A DNA stretch of 64,000 nucleotides from Thermoproteota archaeon (GTDB lineage: Archaea > Thermoproteota > Bathyarchaeia > RBG-16-48-13 > GCA-020355125). The notes beneath the pieces are model-generated. The model was not told where the DNA came from, ran no database searches, and saw only the letters and a program-made list of their open reading frames with translations. The stretch covers positions 1-64,000 of the forward strand of contig JAUPKU010000010.1 in the NCBI GenBank assembly GCA_030837285.1, given 5' to 3'. A program made the position numbers and the translations under genes. Positions 39,418-46,179 of the stretch are shown here, piece after piece. Position 1 is the stretch's first letter; every line of letters begins with the position of its first letter.

Positions 39418-40962
39418 ATGGAAGAACAGAAACTCATCAACAATCGCCTTAAAATTGCTCTTTCCCTAACTATAAATGCTGGATACCAGCTTGACGGAAC
39501 TGCTTTCGCTCTTCTTAAGACTATAGCTCAAACCAAGGAAATAAAAGAAATCCTGGAAGCTACTATAGATAAGACTGCGAAACTCAAAGAAAGACCTCTC
39601 TTCATAACAAGAGAAATGATAGAGGAAATCATAAAAGAATCCATTCCAGAGGACGAAGACTTTAAAACCGTCAGTGAAGGAGTGGGTAAAATATTTCAAC
39701 CACCCGCAAAAGACATGGAAGCCGAGATTGAGATTGTTGATGATCCTACAGATAAAATTAGCTCTGCGGGTGAAGTTGGAGACTTTCTTAAATACTTTAG
39801 AGACAGGTTTACCCGACTTGAGAAGATATTAAAGCAAAGACTTGATGTCAAAGACGCTGTACCAATAAAAATAGTCCTTGATGCGGCCTTAAACTCTAAT
39901 GTAAAAACCATCGGTATTGTAACCGAGATTAGAGAAAGAAATAGAATGATTTTTATGAGTCTTGAAGACTTTGAGAGTACTGTAACAGTTCTTGTTCTAC
40001 CAACAGTTGATAAGTCAATATTCGAAAAAGCTCAGAGGATATTTCTAGATCAGGTAGTATGCGTTCAAGGCAAGCGAGGAAATAGAGACCTTATTATCGC
40101 TACCGATTTCATAAGCCCAGACATTCCTGAAAGAAGACCTAGGACTGCGACAACTAATATCTGTGCTGCTCTATTATCCGATTTACATATTGGAAGTAAC
40201 AAATTTCTAGAAGATAACTTCAATCACTTCATTAGATGGCTAAAGGGTCAAGAAGGCAATAACCGACAAAGAGAAATGGCTGGTAATGTAAAATACATAA
40301 TTATTTGCGGTGATATTGTGGACGGAATAGGTATCTACCCCGATCAGGAAAAGGAACTCTCCATAGGAGACGTATACGAGCAATATAGAGTTGCTGCAAG
40401 AATCCTCCAAAAAATCCCTGAATACATTGAAGTTATTATCAGTCCAGGTAATCATGATGCAACACGTCAATCACTACCTCAACCAGCCATACCAATGAAA
40501 TATGCAGAACCAATCTATGAGGCAAGAAGAATCACTATGCTTGGAAATCCGACGAAAATCAATTTGAACAAAGTAAATTTTCTCCTATACCATGGTCGAA
40601 GCTTAGACGATGTGATTGGGGTTGTTCCTGAAATCTCATATAAGAACATTAATGAAACAATAACAGTAGCTATGAGATATCTCCTCAAAGTACGCCATCT
40701 AGCCCCAATATACGGAAAGAAAACGCCCATAGCACCAGAACCAAACGACTTACTTGTGATTGACACACCCCCAGACGTCTTTCACACGGGACATATACAT
40801 GTAAATGGATACGATACATATAGGGGAACACTACTCATCAATTCTGGTACATGGCAAGGACAGACTGAATTTCAAAGGAAAATGGGACTTGAACCTACTC
40901 CCGGAATAGCTCCAATCATAGATTTAAAAACATACCAAGTTACCCCAATTAATTTTGTATAA
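39418..40962 (+). CDS. polB: DNA polymerase II (family D) small subunit DP1
   Basis: OB-fold region VGIVTEIRERNRMIFMSLEDFESTVTVLV; phosphoesterase motifs AALLSDLHIGSNKF, YIIICGDIVDGIG, IISPGNHDATR, LLYHGRSLDDVI, VFHTGHIHVNG. Confidence 0.95.
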   Translation: MEEQKLINNRLKIALSLTINAGYQLDGTAFALLKTIAQTKEIKEILEATIDKTAKLKERPLFITREMIEEIIKESIPEDEDFKTVSEGVGKIFQPPAKDMEAEIEIVDDPTDKISSAGEVGDFLKYFRDRFTRLEKILKQRLDVKDAVPIKIVLDAALNSNVKTIGIVTEIRERNRMIFMSLEDFESTVTVLVLPTVDKSIFEKAQRIFLDQVVCVQGKRGNRDLIIATDFISPDIPERRPRTATTNICAALLSDLHIGSNKFLEDNFNHFIRWLKGQEGNNRQREMAGNVKYIIICGDIVDGIGIYPDQEKELSIGDVYEQYRVAARILQKIPEYIEVIISPGNHDATRQSLPQPAIPMKYAEPIYEARRITMLGNPTKINLNKVNFLLYHGRSLDDVIGVVPEISYKNINETITVAMRYLLKVRHLAPIYGKKTPIAPEPNDLLVIDTPPDVFHTGHIHVNGYDTYRGTLLINSGTWQGQTEFQRKMGLEPTPGIAPIIDLKTYQVTPINFV

Positions 40963-41047
40963 TTATTCATGGAAAAAACATAGTTCATAGACTCTAATAA
41001 CCAAAACTAATAGTATATAATTAATTATTTATTAATGGTTGAGTACT

Positions 41048-41602
41048 ATGAGAATTCTTGCAATAGAAGATGGCGGATTTAAATTAGATGCATTAAAAAA
41101 AAAGGGAAGAGCTCTATTAGTAGGAGTTTTTACCTGTGATTTTTATATTGAGAAGTTAATTATCTCACATGTTCAAATAGATGGATTAGATGCTACATCA
41201 AAATTAATTAAAATAGCCAAAAATCAAAAATTGCATTTAGACTTAATCATTTTAGGAGCTATTTCTTTTGCTGGCTTTAATTTAATAGACATAATGAAAG
41301 TCTATTCGACCTTAAAAGTTCCTATAATAGTCGTTAACTCTAAAAAACCAAAGGAAGGTGCCATCGAAAGAGCGATATGGCGTCACTTCTTCGATTGGCA
41401 AGAACGTTTACTAATAATAGAAAAAACAAAAAAGCCTATGAAATTAATTCTCAGAAAAACTGAAAATATATACTTACAAATTGCTGGTATCTCGTTCATA
41501 AGAGCTGCGAAGATAATTAAAAAATTAACTATTTTCGGAAAACAACCTGAACCAATTAGAATAGCGCGTATCCTTGCATACGAAATAAGCAAGCAAAAAT
41601 AA
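41048..41602 (+). CDS. DUF99 family protein (endonuclease V-like fold)
   Basis: LAIEDGGFK...ALLVGVFTCDFYIEKLIISHVQIDGLDATSKL; DLIILGAISFAGFNLIDI. Confidence 0.88.
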   Translation: MRILAIEDGGFKLDALKKKGRALLVGVFTCDFYIEKLIISHVQIDGLDATSKLIKIAKNQKLHLDLIILGAISFAGFNLIDIMKVYSTLKVPIIVVNSKKPKEGAIERAIWRHFFDWQERLLIIEKTKKPMKLILRKTENIYLQIAGISFIRAAKIIKKLTIFGKQPEPIRIARILAYEISKQK

Positions 41603-41605
41603 AAA

Positions 41606-42850
41606 TTAGTTATTTTTCTCACCAATACATTTTGGAGAATAAGTCATAACTTGATTAAGCCAAACGTCTTCATTAAAAACATCTTTGACAATGCTATACG
41701 AAACACCTAAACGGACTTTCTTAGTCCTACCATATCTGCCTAAATTAACAACCCGTGCATTCAAGAGACCAATAATATCTAACTCATTTATTAGACCACT
41801 TACCCGCCTCTGCGTCAGAGCCTCTAGATTAAGTTGCCCACATAACTCTTTATAGACTTCATAGATATCGCCAGTAATAGATCCTTCAGTTCTTACTTTC
41901 TTCATTAAATACGTACCACAAACCACAAGTTTAGAATGCAATGGAAGAGTTTTCAAGACTGTAACTACTCTATCCTGCTCAATTTCTTCTCCGGCGTGGC
42001 GAATATGACTTTCATTAACCACGAGACTCCCTTCTCTTTCAGCTAATTCACCAGCAATCCGCAAAAGATCTAGAGCCCTTCTAGCATCTCCATGCTCAGC
42101 AGCAGCCAAAGCCGAGCAGAGATTTAATGCACCATCAGATAAAGTATTTTCAACAAATGAGATCTTAGCTCTCTCTAGAAGAATGTCCTTAATCTCTGTG
42201 GCAATATATGGTTTAAAAATAACCTCTTCCTCACTCAAGCTACTTAATACTCGAGGATCCAGAAGCTCTTTAAAGCGTAAATCATTTGAAATACCAATTA
42301 TTGAAAGTCGACCATTTTTAAGATTCTCATTTATCCTGGTTAACTCATAAAGTAAAGCGTCTCCCTGTGCTTTAACGAGGGCATCAATTTCGTCCAAAAC
42401 AACAATTATAAGAGTGTGTTTTACATTCAATTCACTCTTGAATCTTTCGAAGACCTCGTTAGTAGCTAATCCAGTAAATGGAATTTTTATTCCTAAGCTC
42501 TCTCCAAGTCTAGCCAAAATCCGATAATCCGTACCAATGAGACGACAGTTTAAATAACATCCTTCAACTGAGGCGCCTATCTCGTGTCCCTTATGAATGA
42601 GGCGATCTAACACGTGTTTAACTACAGCAGTTTTACCAGTACCTGTATTCCCATATATAAACAAATTCGACCCACGAAAACCACGTAAAACTGGAACAAG
42701 TATTTCTCCAATCTGTTGAAGTTGCTCATTTCTATGTGGAAGATGTTCTGGAACATAATCTGGCCGTAGAACTTCTCTATCTTTAAAGATTTTTGGCCCT
42801 CTTAAAAAACCATCAAAGATATTATCAAGTAGGTCATGTTCTTCAGACAA
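41606..42850 (-). CDS. cdc6: ORC1-type DNA replication protein (Orc1/Cdc6)
   Basis: VLRPDYVPEHLPHRNEQLQQIGEIL; LFIYGNTGTGKTAVVKHVL; LIIVVLDEIDALV; ISNDLRFKELLDPRVLSSLSEEEVIFKPY; C-terminal winged helix. Confidence 0.95.
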   Translation of the reverse strand: MSEEHDLLDNIFDGFLRGPKIFKDREVLRPDYVPEHLPHRNEQLQQIGEILVPVLRGFRGSNLFIYGNTGTGKTAVVKHVLDRLIHKGHEIGASVEGCYLNCRLIGTDYRILARLGESLGIKIPFTGLATNEVFERFKSELNVKHTLIIVVLDEIDALVKAQGDALLYELTRINENLKNGRLSIIGISNDLRFKELLDPRVLSSLSEEEVIFKPYIATEIKDILLERAKISFVENTLSDGALNLCSALAAAEHGDARRALDLLRIAGELAEREGSLVVNESHIRHAGEEIEQDRVVTVLKTLPLHSKLVVCGTYLMKKVRTEGSITGDIYEVYKELCGQLNLEALTQRRVSGLINELDIIGLLNARVVNLGRYGRTKKVRLGVSYSIVKDVFNEDVWLNQVMTYSPKCIGEKNN

Positions 42851-43500
42851 ATCTATAGTGCGCCTCTAACATTTCGACGAACAGCTGTCCCATTTCCACT
42901 CCAGAAATAAAAAACAGTTTGTCTAAAAAATCAAATAATTATAATAAAATTTTTTACTCAATAATACCCCCACACCCCACAATTTCCAATCCAAAAAATA
43001 TTAAATAGAATGTTAATTATTTTATTTTAAAAAAAATTATCTAATTGGTATATTTAATTAATAATATTTATAATAATTGTAAAATTCATTAAACAAATTT
43101 ATCTAATTGATAAATGTAATCTAAAATTATCAATTGTTGAACTTCATATGAATTCCAGTGGATAATTGGGGGACGGTTATAAATCCCTGATCTTATTAGT
43201 GAAATCCTTGTGTGAAATAGTGTGAATAGATGAAAAAAAAGAAGTCATTTTTTTCTTTATTTTGATAATTGACCTCTTTTCCATGAGAAAAATCTAGACC
43301 CCTTCTTTTCCATTGGAAACAGAGATTTTATCCAATTTCTAGGAATTTTTAACTAATATCCTCTGTGAATCAGTGAAATAACAAAAAAGATAATTTATTT
43401 TTCTCATTTCAGTAATAAATCTATTTTAGACCTTATTTCAAAGTTCACAAATAATTACTTTCACAAGATATCTTTTTATCTTGTGAATATGTTATCTTTT
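42851..43500. other. Candidate chromosomal replication origin (intergenic, AT-rich, ORB-like elements)
   Basis: Immediately upstream of cdc6. ORB-like TTCCAGTGGATAATTGGGGG (+) 43153-43172; revcomp TTCCAATGGAAAAGAAGGGG (-) 43299-43318; revcomp TTGGATTGGAAATTGTGGGG (-) 42975-42994. Extremely AT-rich stretch 42995-43152 between two of them. Confidence 0.75.
43460..43487. promoter_or_regulatory. Perfect 11-bp inverted repeat TTCACAAGATA-N6-TATCTTGTGAA
   Basis: Read directly; upstream of the wHTH ORF. Confidence 0.85.
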
Positions 43501-43613
43501 GAAATCAAGGAGGAGTATGCCGCCTGCCTACGAATAAGGTAAAGGTAAATATCAATGATGATGAGGGAAATAAAATAATCATCTCATTTGAAGGAAAAAT
43601 AACAAGAAATAAA

Positions 43614-43937
43614 GTGCTTCAAGTGCTTGATTTCGTAGAACTACTAGGCGGAGGTTCGACTTCAAATGAAGAAAGAAATATATCTGATTTTTCGAAATTT
43701 GAAAAAATCAGAAACGTTATAGAGCGGAAACTCCCTATTGGCTCGTTTACATCACAAGAGGTAATGATGGTCTATGAGGATTTGCTCAACGAGCCAATAG
43801 GACTAAGCACTGTATCAACCTACCTTTCCCGATTAGTTGATAAGGGCTTTCTAACGAGATCCGGATCTGCAGCTAGTCGTAAGTACAAACTTAAAAGACA
43901 CCGAACTCTACCCGAAGAACAACATATTCAACCATAA
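43614..43937 (+). CDS. Winged-helix (wHTH) DNA-binding protein; true start probably upstream (about 43517)
   Basis: LPIGSFTSQEVMMVYEDLLNEPIGLSTVSTYLSRLVDKGFLTRSGSAASRKYKL; frame is open upstream (PTNKVKVNINDDEGNKIIISFEGKITRNK). Confidence 0.7.
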   Translation: MLQVLDFVELLGGGSTSNEERNISDFSKFEKIRNVIERKLPIGSFTSQEVMMVYEDLLNEPIGLSTVSTYLSRLVDKGFLTRSGSAASRKYKLKRHRTLPEEQHIQP

Positions 43938-44725: not shown

Positions 44726-45304
44726 CTAAGTTTCAAAATGTATAATTGATGATAACACATCAATTTTAGTTATTATTCCTATGATTTTTTCGTGTTCAAG
44801 TACTAGTATTGCAGGCTCACCAAGCGAAAGCAGAATCAAAATATCAGAAATATTCGTTATGGGATCAACAGTTTTAAAGCGCTCACCCATAACCTCATAT
44901 ATTGATGTATTGAAGAATCTGTCTGGGTTACTACTTCTTACAATTCTATCGACTAGGCTAGATTCTTGGATGCTACCAATGTTCTTACTGTCCTTAATAA
45001 CAGGAATCTGAGAGATATCGTGCTTCTTCATAAGTTCAATAGCTCTTCGAACATTGTCTGAAACATTGATAGTTATAACGGGACTATTCATCACATCTTT
45101 TGCTGTTCTCTCACCTTGTGCAATCACTATAGCTTGAACTATTTTTTTTACTGTAGAAAGGCGAGGATCCACACTATTATTCTCTATACGAGCTATTAAT
45201 GATTGACTTACTCCAGCTTTCTTCGATAATTCCTTCTGTGTTAAGCCTGCTATCTTTCTAAGGCGTCGAATATCCTCTACTGTAATCAGCTTCACCGACA
45301 TCAC
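44726..45304 (-). CDS. XRE-type HTH plus tandem CBS domain transcriptional regulator
   Basis: EDIRRLRKIAGLTQKELSKKAGVSQSLIARIENNSVDPRLSTVKKI; AKDVMNSPVITINVSDNVRRAIELMKKHDISQIPVI. Confidence 0.92.
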   Translation of the reverse strand: MMSVKLITVEDIRRLRKIAGLTQKELSKKAGVSQSLIARIENNSVDPRLSTVKKIVQAIVIAQGERTAKDVMNSPVITINVSDNVRRAIELMKKHDISQIPVIKDSKNIGSIQESSLVDRIVRSSNPDRFFNTSIYEVMGERFKTVDPITNISDILILLSLGEPAILVLEHEKIIGIITKIDVLSSIIHFET

Positions 45305-45532: not shown

Positions 45533-45590
45533 AAAGTCACGGATCAATTAAGTCTTGAACTAAAAATATAATATTTAAAAATATATTTTT

Positions 45591-45620
45591 ATTTTAAATA
45601 TAATTAATTATATTTAAAAT
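45591..45620. repeat. 30-bp perfect AT-only palindrome ATTTTAAATATAATTAATTATATTTAAAAT
   Basis: Read directly; equals its own reverse complement. Confidence 0.95.
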
Positions 45621-45669
45621 GGAATTGTTAAAATTATTGAATTTCTTTAATTCATAACCGTGATAACTC

Positions 45670-45679
45670 GTGATATCAC
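45670..45679. promoter_or_regulatory. Palindromic box GTGATATCAC
   Basis: Read directly; immediately beyond the 3' end of ORF 45685-46179. Confidence 0.75.
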
Positions 45680-45684
45680 ATTAT

Positions 45685-46179
45685 TTATTCTTTATTTTTA
45701 TTAAAATTGAGATAAAATAGTGAATCTTCAAGCTCCTTTTTTAATAAAAGGATTGTATTAAGCTTATTTTTATCTAAATTGCTTGATTTTGTTTTATTCC
45801 ACATCTTTTCATATGCTTCCATATATTCTTGAAGTTTATTTGCTATCTCAGTAAAAGGGGTTAATTTTGGCGTATCTAAAATACCTACGTACCCTAGAAG
45901 GAGAATTGTATTTATTGTACGGGTGACGTTTCTTCTTGCTTGTCTTAATGTATGATTAAAGGAACCTCGTGTTATTGGGGTTTTTGATGGTCGTAGTTTT
46001 GATTTTTGTTCGTAAGCCATTTTAAAATCTACTATATTATTAGCTAAAATATCAATTAGGAATGTTTGAAGTTGTATTTCTGTTAAATGACTATTTTTCA
46101 TTAATATTTTAGCTAAAGGATCGCTAATTATCCTTTCTACTTTTTCTTGAATTTCTTGAGCATCATCTCGGTTCTCCAA
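45685..46179 (-). CDS. Hypothetical protein, helical and Lys-rich, no recognised family
   Basis: 164 aa; MENRDDAQEIQEKVERIISDPLAKILMKNSHLTEIQLQTFLIDILANNIVDFKMAYEQKSKLRPSKTPITRGSFNHTLRQARRNVTRTINTILLLGYVGI. Confidence 0.75.
   Translation of the reverse strand: MENRDDAQEIQEKVERIISDPLAKILMKNSHLTEIQLQTFLIDILANNIVDFKMAYEQKSKLRPSKTPITRGSFNHTLRQARRNVTRTINTILLLGYVGILDTPKLTPFTEIANKLQEYMEAYEKMWNKTKSSNLDKNKLNTILLLKKELEDSLFYLNFNKNKE

Follow-up and report, generated by a model that had tools for sequence, protein, structure and literature searches.

Only a few archaeal lineages have had their replication origins dissected, and accessory proteins that bind them are barely known; one of these, UBP, was reported in 2025. 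WhiP of Sulfolobus oriC3 is a winged-helix initiator that is encoded beside its origin. Sulfolobus oriC1 follows an ORB3-DUE-ORB2 plan and carries a motif, termed ucm, that is bound by UBP (PMC12141716). The single origin of Nitrosopumilus maritimus was mapped in vivo (Pelve 2013, cited in PMC4010727). Among open-licence papers, none was found that maps an origin in Bathyarchaeia.

We analyzed a stretch of 64,000 nucleotides, referred to as the window, for which a sequence-only reading had claimed an origin linked to orc1/cdc6. The locus is almost certainly a chromosome replication origin, a claim supported by the identity of its Orc1 protein, by an architecture conserved in 75 of 81 relatives, and by ORBs that are nearly confined to the locus. 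It is a further member of an established archaeal origin type. What appears to be new is a layer that consists of a winged-helix (wHTH) protein and TTCACA repeats. Positions 42,950-43,500 likely constitute an Orc1-1-type origin of a Bathyarchaeia-like archaeon to which this second layer has been added. The features of the locus are as follows.

39418-40962, strand not given: gene for the small subunit (DP1) of DNA polymerase D, by family profile match
41039-41602, strand not given: endonuclease dU gene, by Pfam Endo_dU
41606-42850, minus strand: orc1-1/cdc6 initiator gene, 414 aa with the TTG start as listed, by Pfam, NCBIfam and PDB profile
42975-42994, minus strand: ORB_c, the orc1-proximal ORB, TTGGATTGGAAATTGTGGGG then TGTGGGGG; 23.6 bits, at a conserved position
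42995-43152, no strand: duplex unwinding element (DUE), 158 bp, 88.6% A+T, by composition and the A+T pattern of relatives
43031-43048, minus strand: DUE element CCAATTAGATAATTTTTT, which matches the class motif CCttTcAGAGTATATTTc in degenerate form; 11.2 bits, 34 bp from ORB_c
43099-43115, plus strand: second copy of a direct repeat, TTATCTAATTGATAAAT, at chance level and within a longer repeat
43153-43172, plus strand: ORB_b, TTCCAGTGGATAATTGGGGG; 18.7 bits
43211-43226, minus strand: tandem TTCACA of the P4 cluster, 10 bp apart (43211 and 43221; TGTGAAATAGTGTGAA on the plus strand), at a conserved position
43299-43318, minus strand: ORB_a, the distal ORB, TTCCAATGGAAAAGAAGGGG; 32.7 bits
43364-43369, minus strand: TTCACA site of the P2 cluster, distal to ORB_a, by positional cluster in relatives
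43444-43449, plus strand: TTCACA site of the P1 cluster, by positional cluster in relatives
43460-43487, no strand: operator-like palindrome of P1, TTCACAAGATATCTTTTTATCTTGTGAA, with perfect 11-bp arms, before the wHTH gene
43524-43937, plus strand: origin-linked winged-helix protein, about 137 aa, by homologs and an AF2 model

Three of these features had escaped the sequence-only reading: the DUE motif conserved in relatives, the wHTH gene, and the repeats of TTCACA.

Anatomy and conservation of the origin core

The Orc1 protein scores above cut-off with Pfam Cdc6_C and Cdc6_lid, and with the NCBIfam equivalog NF001625 (ORC1-type DNA replication protein; 511 bits, cut-off 501). Its closest solved structures are Sulfolobus Cdc6-1 (2qby_A, E=1.6e-115) and Aeropyrum ORC1 (2v1u), and its winged-helix segment aligns well to solved relatives. 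Most of its named relatives, which share 49-56% identity with it, are MAGs of Candidatus Bathyarchaeota, and a similarity search against plasmid records gave no match. Two further Orc1/Cdc6 paralogs with 30-32% identity to Orc1-1 are encoded at G000:C154:8395-9459 and G000:C90:584-1654 (L136, L137). No ORB with two or fewer mismatches is found near either gene, and the products are perhaps regulators, other initiators, or contamination.

When checked against the window sequence, the three ORB-like 20-mers proposed earlier have exactly the coordinates and strands claimed for them. The ORB consensus, TTCCANTGGAAANNNNGGGG, was scanned over the 2.74-Mb genome (281 contigs) with the reversed pattern as a control. 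ORB_a, at 43299, is the sole perfect match in the genome, and ORB_b, at 43153, is the sole match with one mismatch. ORB_c, at 42975, has two mismatches and is among eight such sites, whereas the reversed control matches four times in total at two or fewer mismatches. By sequence alone, ORB_c is therefore no better than seven other sites, and it is its position that makes it credible. In an ORB profile built on relatives, from which the bit scores listed above are taken, the window ORBs keep the conserved order and spacing. The restriction of strong ORBs extends to 61 relatives, in which most of the 88 matches with at most one mismatch fall at the orc1/wHTH locus and the reversed control gives few. 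The sequence-only reading had called for a genome-wide scan of the motif and had held that its presence at many non-origin sites would speak against an origin. The near confinement of strong ORBs to the 43-kb locus, in this genome and in the 61 relatives, answers that concern.

At up to three mismatches, the consensus occurs four times in the window and 2.0 times by expectation, as might be anticipated if the elements were chance matches in A+T-rich intergenic DNA. Against this, their order and spacing are fixed in 75 of 81 relatives and the strong sites are genome-unique, such that the probability of a chance origin is practically negligible.

The core was compared in 81 non-redundant relatives by reading outward from the wHTH gene through its upstream DNA, in MAG assemblies in which contigs can be misplaced; ORB_a, ORB_b and ORB_c are named in order from the wHTH gene towards orc1. 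The ORB profile finds the order +,-,+ in 75 relatives (70 exactly, and five with one extra + element); of the remaining six, three have -,+ and three have + only or ++. ORB_b and ORB_c are inverted and in nearly all relatives are spaced by 167-223 bp, with a median of about 183.

The stretch between the inverted ORBs had been described as almost pure A/T. It is indeed 158 bp long and A+T-rich, although at 88.6% the wording is a slight overstatement. Among all 158-bp frames of the window, the one richest in A+T begins at 42981 and so overlaps this core. In 67 of 75 relatives, the ORB_b-ORB_c interval exceeds the ORB_a-ORB_b interval in A+T content. A second A+T tract (45561-45718, 88.0%) is devoid of ORBs and lies between a CBS/HTH gene (44726-45304) and an ORF at 45685-46179.

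Motif discovery in 67 DUE cores produced CCttTcAGAGTATATTTc, with a log-likelihood of 566 compared with 82-95 for shuffled cores. The motif exceeds 8 bits in 56 of the 67 cores and is located 35-46 bp from ORB_c in nearly all; in the same search, the origins of family f8 are without it. The T-A-rich end of the motif may also be a promoter element. In the window, the element at 43031-43048 overlaps, on the opposite strand, the first copy of the direct repeat noted earlier (43037). That 15/17 repeat, with its second copy at 43099, is present as described but is at chance level for this composition. It was rejected as a specific element, in that 14 of 60 Markov shuffles reach at least 15/17. The copy at 43099 belongs to a 39-bp repeat of 79% identity paired with 43027-43065.

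Sulfolobus oriC1 likewise has three ORBs beside orc1-1, an inverted pair around an A+T-rich DUE, and a short DUE motif (PMC12141716, PMC3718332). The two origins differ in that the ORB pair of the window is ~180 bp apart, whereas the Sulfolobus region is 130 bp; in that the DUE motif here is ~40 bp from ORB_c and not midway; and in that TTCACA repeats and a divergent wHTH gene are additional here. The class motif is alike in kind to the ucm of Sulfolobales, as each is a short, conserved sequence with a fixed position within the DUE, but we do not assign it to ucm. ORB_c and ORB_b are inverted, with their G-strings pointing away from the DUE between them. By homology with Sulfolobus oriC1, Orc1-1 expressed from the adjacent gene would bind this pair and load MCM at the DUE.

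In Pyrococcus and other euryarchaea, too, oriC adjoins orc1/cdc6, and the small subunit of DNA polymerase D is encoded nearby (PMC2643942). In the window, genes for the PolD small subunit, endonuclease dU, and Orc1 adjoin (39418-42850), an arrangement that resembles the euryarchaeal DP1-cdc6 linkage but differs from it in that the endonuclease dU gene sits between DP1 and orc1. To our knowledge, no wHTH/TTCACA layer has been described for euryarchaeal oriC.

The conserved region might instead serve orc1 autoregulation or be a dormant origin. Autoregulation by Orc1 through ORBs in its promoter is plausible, and nucleotide skew gave no signal where it was sampled: the genome of the window is in 281 contigs, and GC and AT skew, sampled instead in three one-contig relatives (G129, G199, and G163), are flat or noisy with no inflection at the locus. 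An autoregulatory region, however, is poorly reconciled with the several families in which orc1 has moved away and the ORBs remain with the wHTH gene. Family f48 has a complete +,-,+ set with the wHTH gene at 50-90 kb from orc1, and loci L033-L038 have a full ORB set away from orc1 with the architecture kept. Moreover, inverted ORBs around a DUE with a motif at a fixed position are the anatomy of an origin (PMC12141716), and the in vivo mapping of the single N. maritimus origin (cited in PMC4010727) also argues against inactivity. We consider an inactive or purely autoregulatory region very improbable.

Several genomes depart from this pattern. G002, which belongs to the family of the window and consists of one 2.0-Mb contig, contains neither a close Orc1-1, nor wHTH, nor any ORB match. 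Families f9 and f12 of the class are also without wHTH and mostly without Orc1-1. These organisms may use another type of origin. A contig labelled Candidatus Njordarchaeum (L035, JAUQYT010000284.1) carries a Bathyarchaeia-type wHTH/ORB origin and an Orc1-1 of 55% identity, and may for this reason be misbinned.

The winged-helix gene and the TTCACA repeats

At its conserved start (43500-43530 of the window), the wHTH frame lacks ATG, GTG, and TTG; an ATG is present at 43517 but in another frame. The start is likely the CTG at 43524, which is preceded by GGAGG. Of 201 genomes in the class, 141 have a homolog, nearly always in single copy, 152 have Orc1-1, and 139 have both. Only wHTH is found in two genomes, whose assemblies are incomplete or fragmented; only Orc1 is found in 13, and many of these cases lie at contig ends. 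The family spans the phylum, and the gene is usually divergent from orc1 across the origin.

An AlphaFold2 model of the protein has a beta-beta-helix N-terminal part and a confidently predicted winged helix (pLDDT >90). Known families provide little guidance. No Pfam model exceeds its cut-off, the best being Penicillinase_R (20.5 bits, cut-off 22.6), with MarR, ArsR, and Cdc6_C also falling short, and NCBIfam gives no match. A Foldseek search of the PDB returns generic winged-helix proteins, none at E<=0.001, and matches from a PDB profile search are weak and mixed.

No hexamer is more over-represented in the wHTH-origin stretch than TTCACA, which occurs 321 times on one strand compared with 25.1 +- 4.9 in Markov shuffles, and 95 times on the other strand compared with 19 expected. 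In relatives, the sites fall into four positional clusters. P1 covers the wHTH promoter and is conserved beside a TTATAA sequence; P2 is 50-60 bp to the wHTH side of ORB_a; P3 is just past the G-string of ORB_a; and P4, ~100 bp past ORB_a, is a tandem with 10-11-bp spacing that is often followed by TGTGAA. Scans for sigma-70-type promoters and terminators are not meaningful for an archaeon, and the one terminator-like match is the P1 palindrome. We also considered TTCACA pairs as a genome-wide regulon and rejected the idea: outside origins the background is roughly one pair in each genome, a level close to that of the control. In family f21 (L124/G044, L123/G036, L140/G060, and L141/G040), a module composed of wHTH, TTCACA, and ORB_a lies ~4-5 kb downstream of orc1, and in G044 the ORB_b-ORB_c pair is still upstream of orc1.

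The coverage of the wHTH gene's own promoter by TTCACA sites suggests autorepression, and the placement of sites at fixed offsets around ORB_a suggests that the protein helps or hinders Orc1 assembly on the distal half of the origin. According to this model, the wHTH protein would contact TTCACA directly through its recognition helix, would repress its own promoter from P1, and from P2-P4 would modulate Orc1 binding at ORB_a, in either direction, to tune initiation. Control of initiation by the protein is, on balance, a slightly favored proposal.

A simpler explanation is that the origin is ordinary and TTCACA is an operator of wHTH, and perhaps of orc1, with a role in transcriptional control only. 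The P1 cluster, which lies over the wHTH promoter beside a TATA-like sequence, is what such an operator would look like, and the joint displacement of wHTH, TTCACA, and ORB_a in f21, by ~4-5 kb relative to orc1 and to the pair of ORB_b and ORB_c, fits it as well. An operator alone does not readily account for sites that reach as far as ~310 bp from the start of wHTH, keep fixed offsets from ORB_a, and are distant from the orc1 start. In addition, where the wHTH gene has moved away from the origin (families f35, f39, and f50), the origin keeps its ORBs and TTCACA (29 sites compared with 2.3 expected), whereas TTCACA upstream of the relocated gene is at chance (one compared with 0.9 expected). 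A purely transcriptional role is thus rather unlikely, though it deserves more weight than the other alternatives considered here.

Co-variation of recognition helix and repeat

The wHTH protein and the repeats occur together. Three origins that lack wHTH (G014, G024, and G041) keep ORB_b-DUE-ORB_c, and both ORB_a and the nearby TTCACA are absent. The sequence of the protein also follows that of the repeat. Origins with TTCACA have a recognition helix of the form LS-T-x-(S/A)-TY. In ammonia oxidizers, assigned by the presence of amoA, the helix is LS-(I/V/L)-x-STY, and TTAACA takes the place of TTCACA (99 occurrences compared with 6.5 expected, in 11 origins). Within one bathyarchaeal family, a genus with an LS-A-x-STY helix carries mostly TTAACA, at the usual positions, and a smaller number of TTCACA, and its sister genus has an LS-T helix and mainly TTCACA. 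Helix and repeat have therefore switched at least twice separately, once in ammonia oxidizers and once in a single genus of this family. In a two-by-two count, origins whose helix has Thr carry TTCACA in 77 cases and TTAACA in none, whereas those with another residue carry TTCACA in one case and TTAACA in 21 (two ties; Fisher p = 1e-20, a value that ignores shared ancestry). The exceptions are one LSA protein (L018) with TTCACA instead of TTAACA and one LST origin that is a tie.

This co-variation, together with the co-occurrence, makes it very likely that the putative DNA-binding protein recognizes the TTCACA repeats. Another protein, for example a nucleoid protein, could in principle bind TTCACA and TTAACA, with the changes in wHTH being a coincidence of lineage. 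Relatedness is uncontrolled in the two-by-two table, and the Sulfolobus UBP provides a precedent for other proteins binding origins (PMC12141716). Coincidence, however, would have to explain why the varying residue is within the recognition helix, why at least two switches occurred, and why origins with LSA have TTAACA where others have TTCACA. It would also have to explain why the repeats are absent where wHTH is absent and in the sole genome with an LGVVSTY helix. We regard a different binder as improbable, and favor wHTH as the protein that reads the repeats. Some lineages that have wHTH, such as f58, show no enrichment of TTNACA beside the wHTH gene.

The ammonia-oxidizer origin resembles that of the window in having orc1, ORBs, and a wHTH gene of the same family; in most amoA-positive genomes, this gene is divergent from orc1 across ~490 bp. 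It differs in having two tandem ORBs on the wHTH side and in the replacement of TTCACA by TTAACA. We found no description of wHTH, its repeats, or GTTAACA at AOA origins in open-licence papers. Compared with known origin-binding proteins, wHTH is distinct from UBP, which binds DNA by beta-hairpins (PMC12141716), in that it is a predicted winged-helix protein. It differs from WhiP in being a small companion at an origin that has an Orc1-1 gene and ORBs, rather than a sole initiator.

From sequence comparison, we infer that wHTH is a second sequence-specific origin-binding factor of Thermoproteota, without a match in family libraries and apparently undescribed in open-licence papers. A more general proposal, which we hold with moderate confidence, is that Thermoproteota origins are two-protein systems, in which Orc1-1 acts on ORBs and wHTH acts on TTCACA (TTAACA in ammonia oxidizers) around the distal ORB. 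In such systems, wHTH would regulate initiation, and one helix residue (Thr versus Ile/Val/Leu or Ala) would set the specificity for the repeat.

The wHTH/repeat layer is potentially of wide importance. The comparison yields a concrete and testable anatomy of the origin both in a large class of uncultured archaea and in ammonia oxidizers, some of which are cultured, and it nominates a specific protein, with a predicted DNA code, as a second origin-binding factor. If the proposal is true, the regulation of archaeal initiation would be opened to direct tests.

The genome with the LGVVSTY helix (G013; L021, L064) has neither repeat in number at its origin and has no ORB_a. A TACCGGGAA repeat is present there instead, in four copies, three of which read CGCTACCGGGAA; it is possibly a re-specified site.
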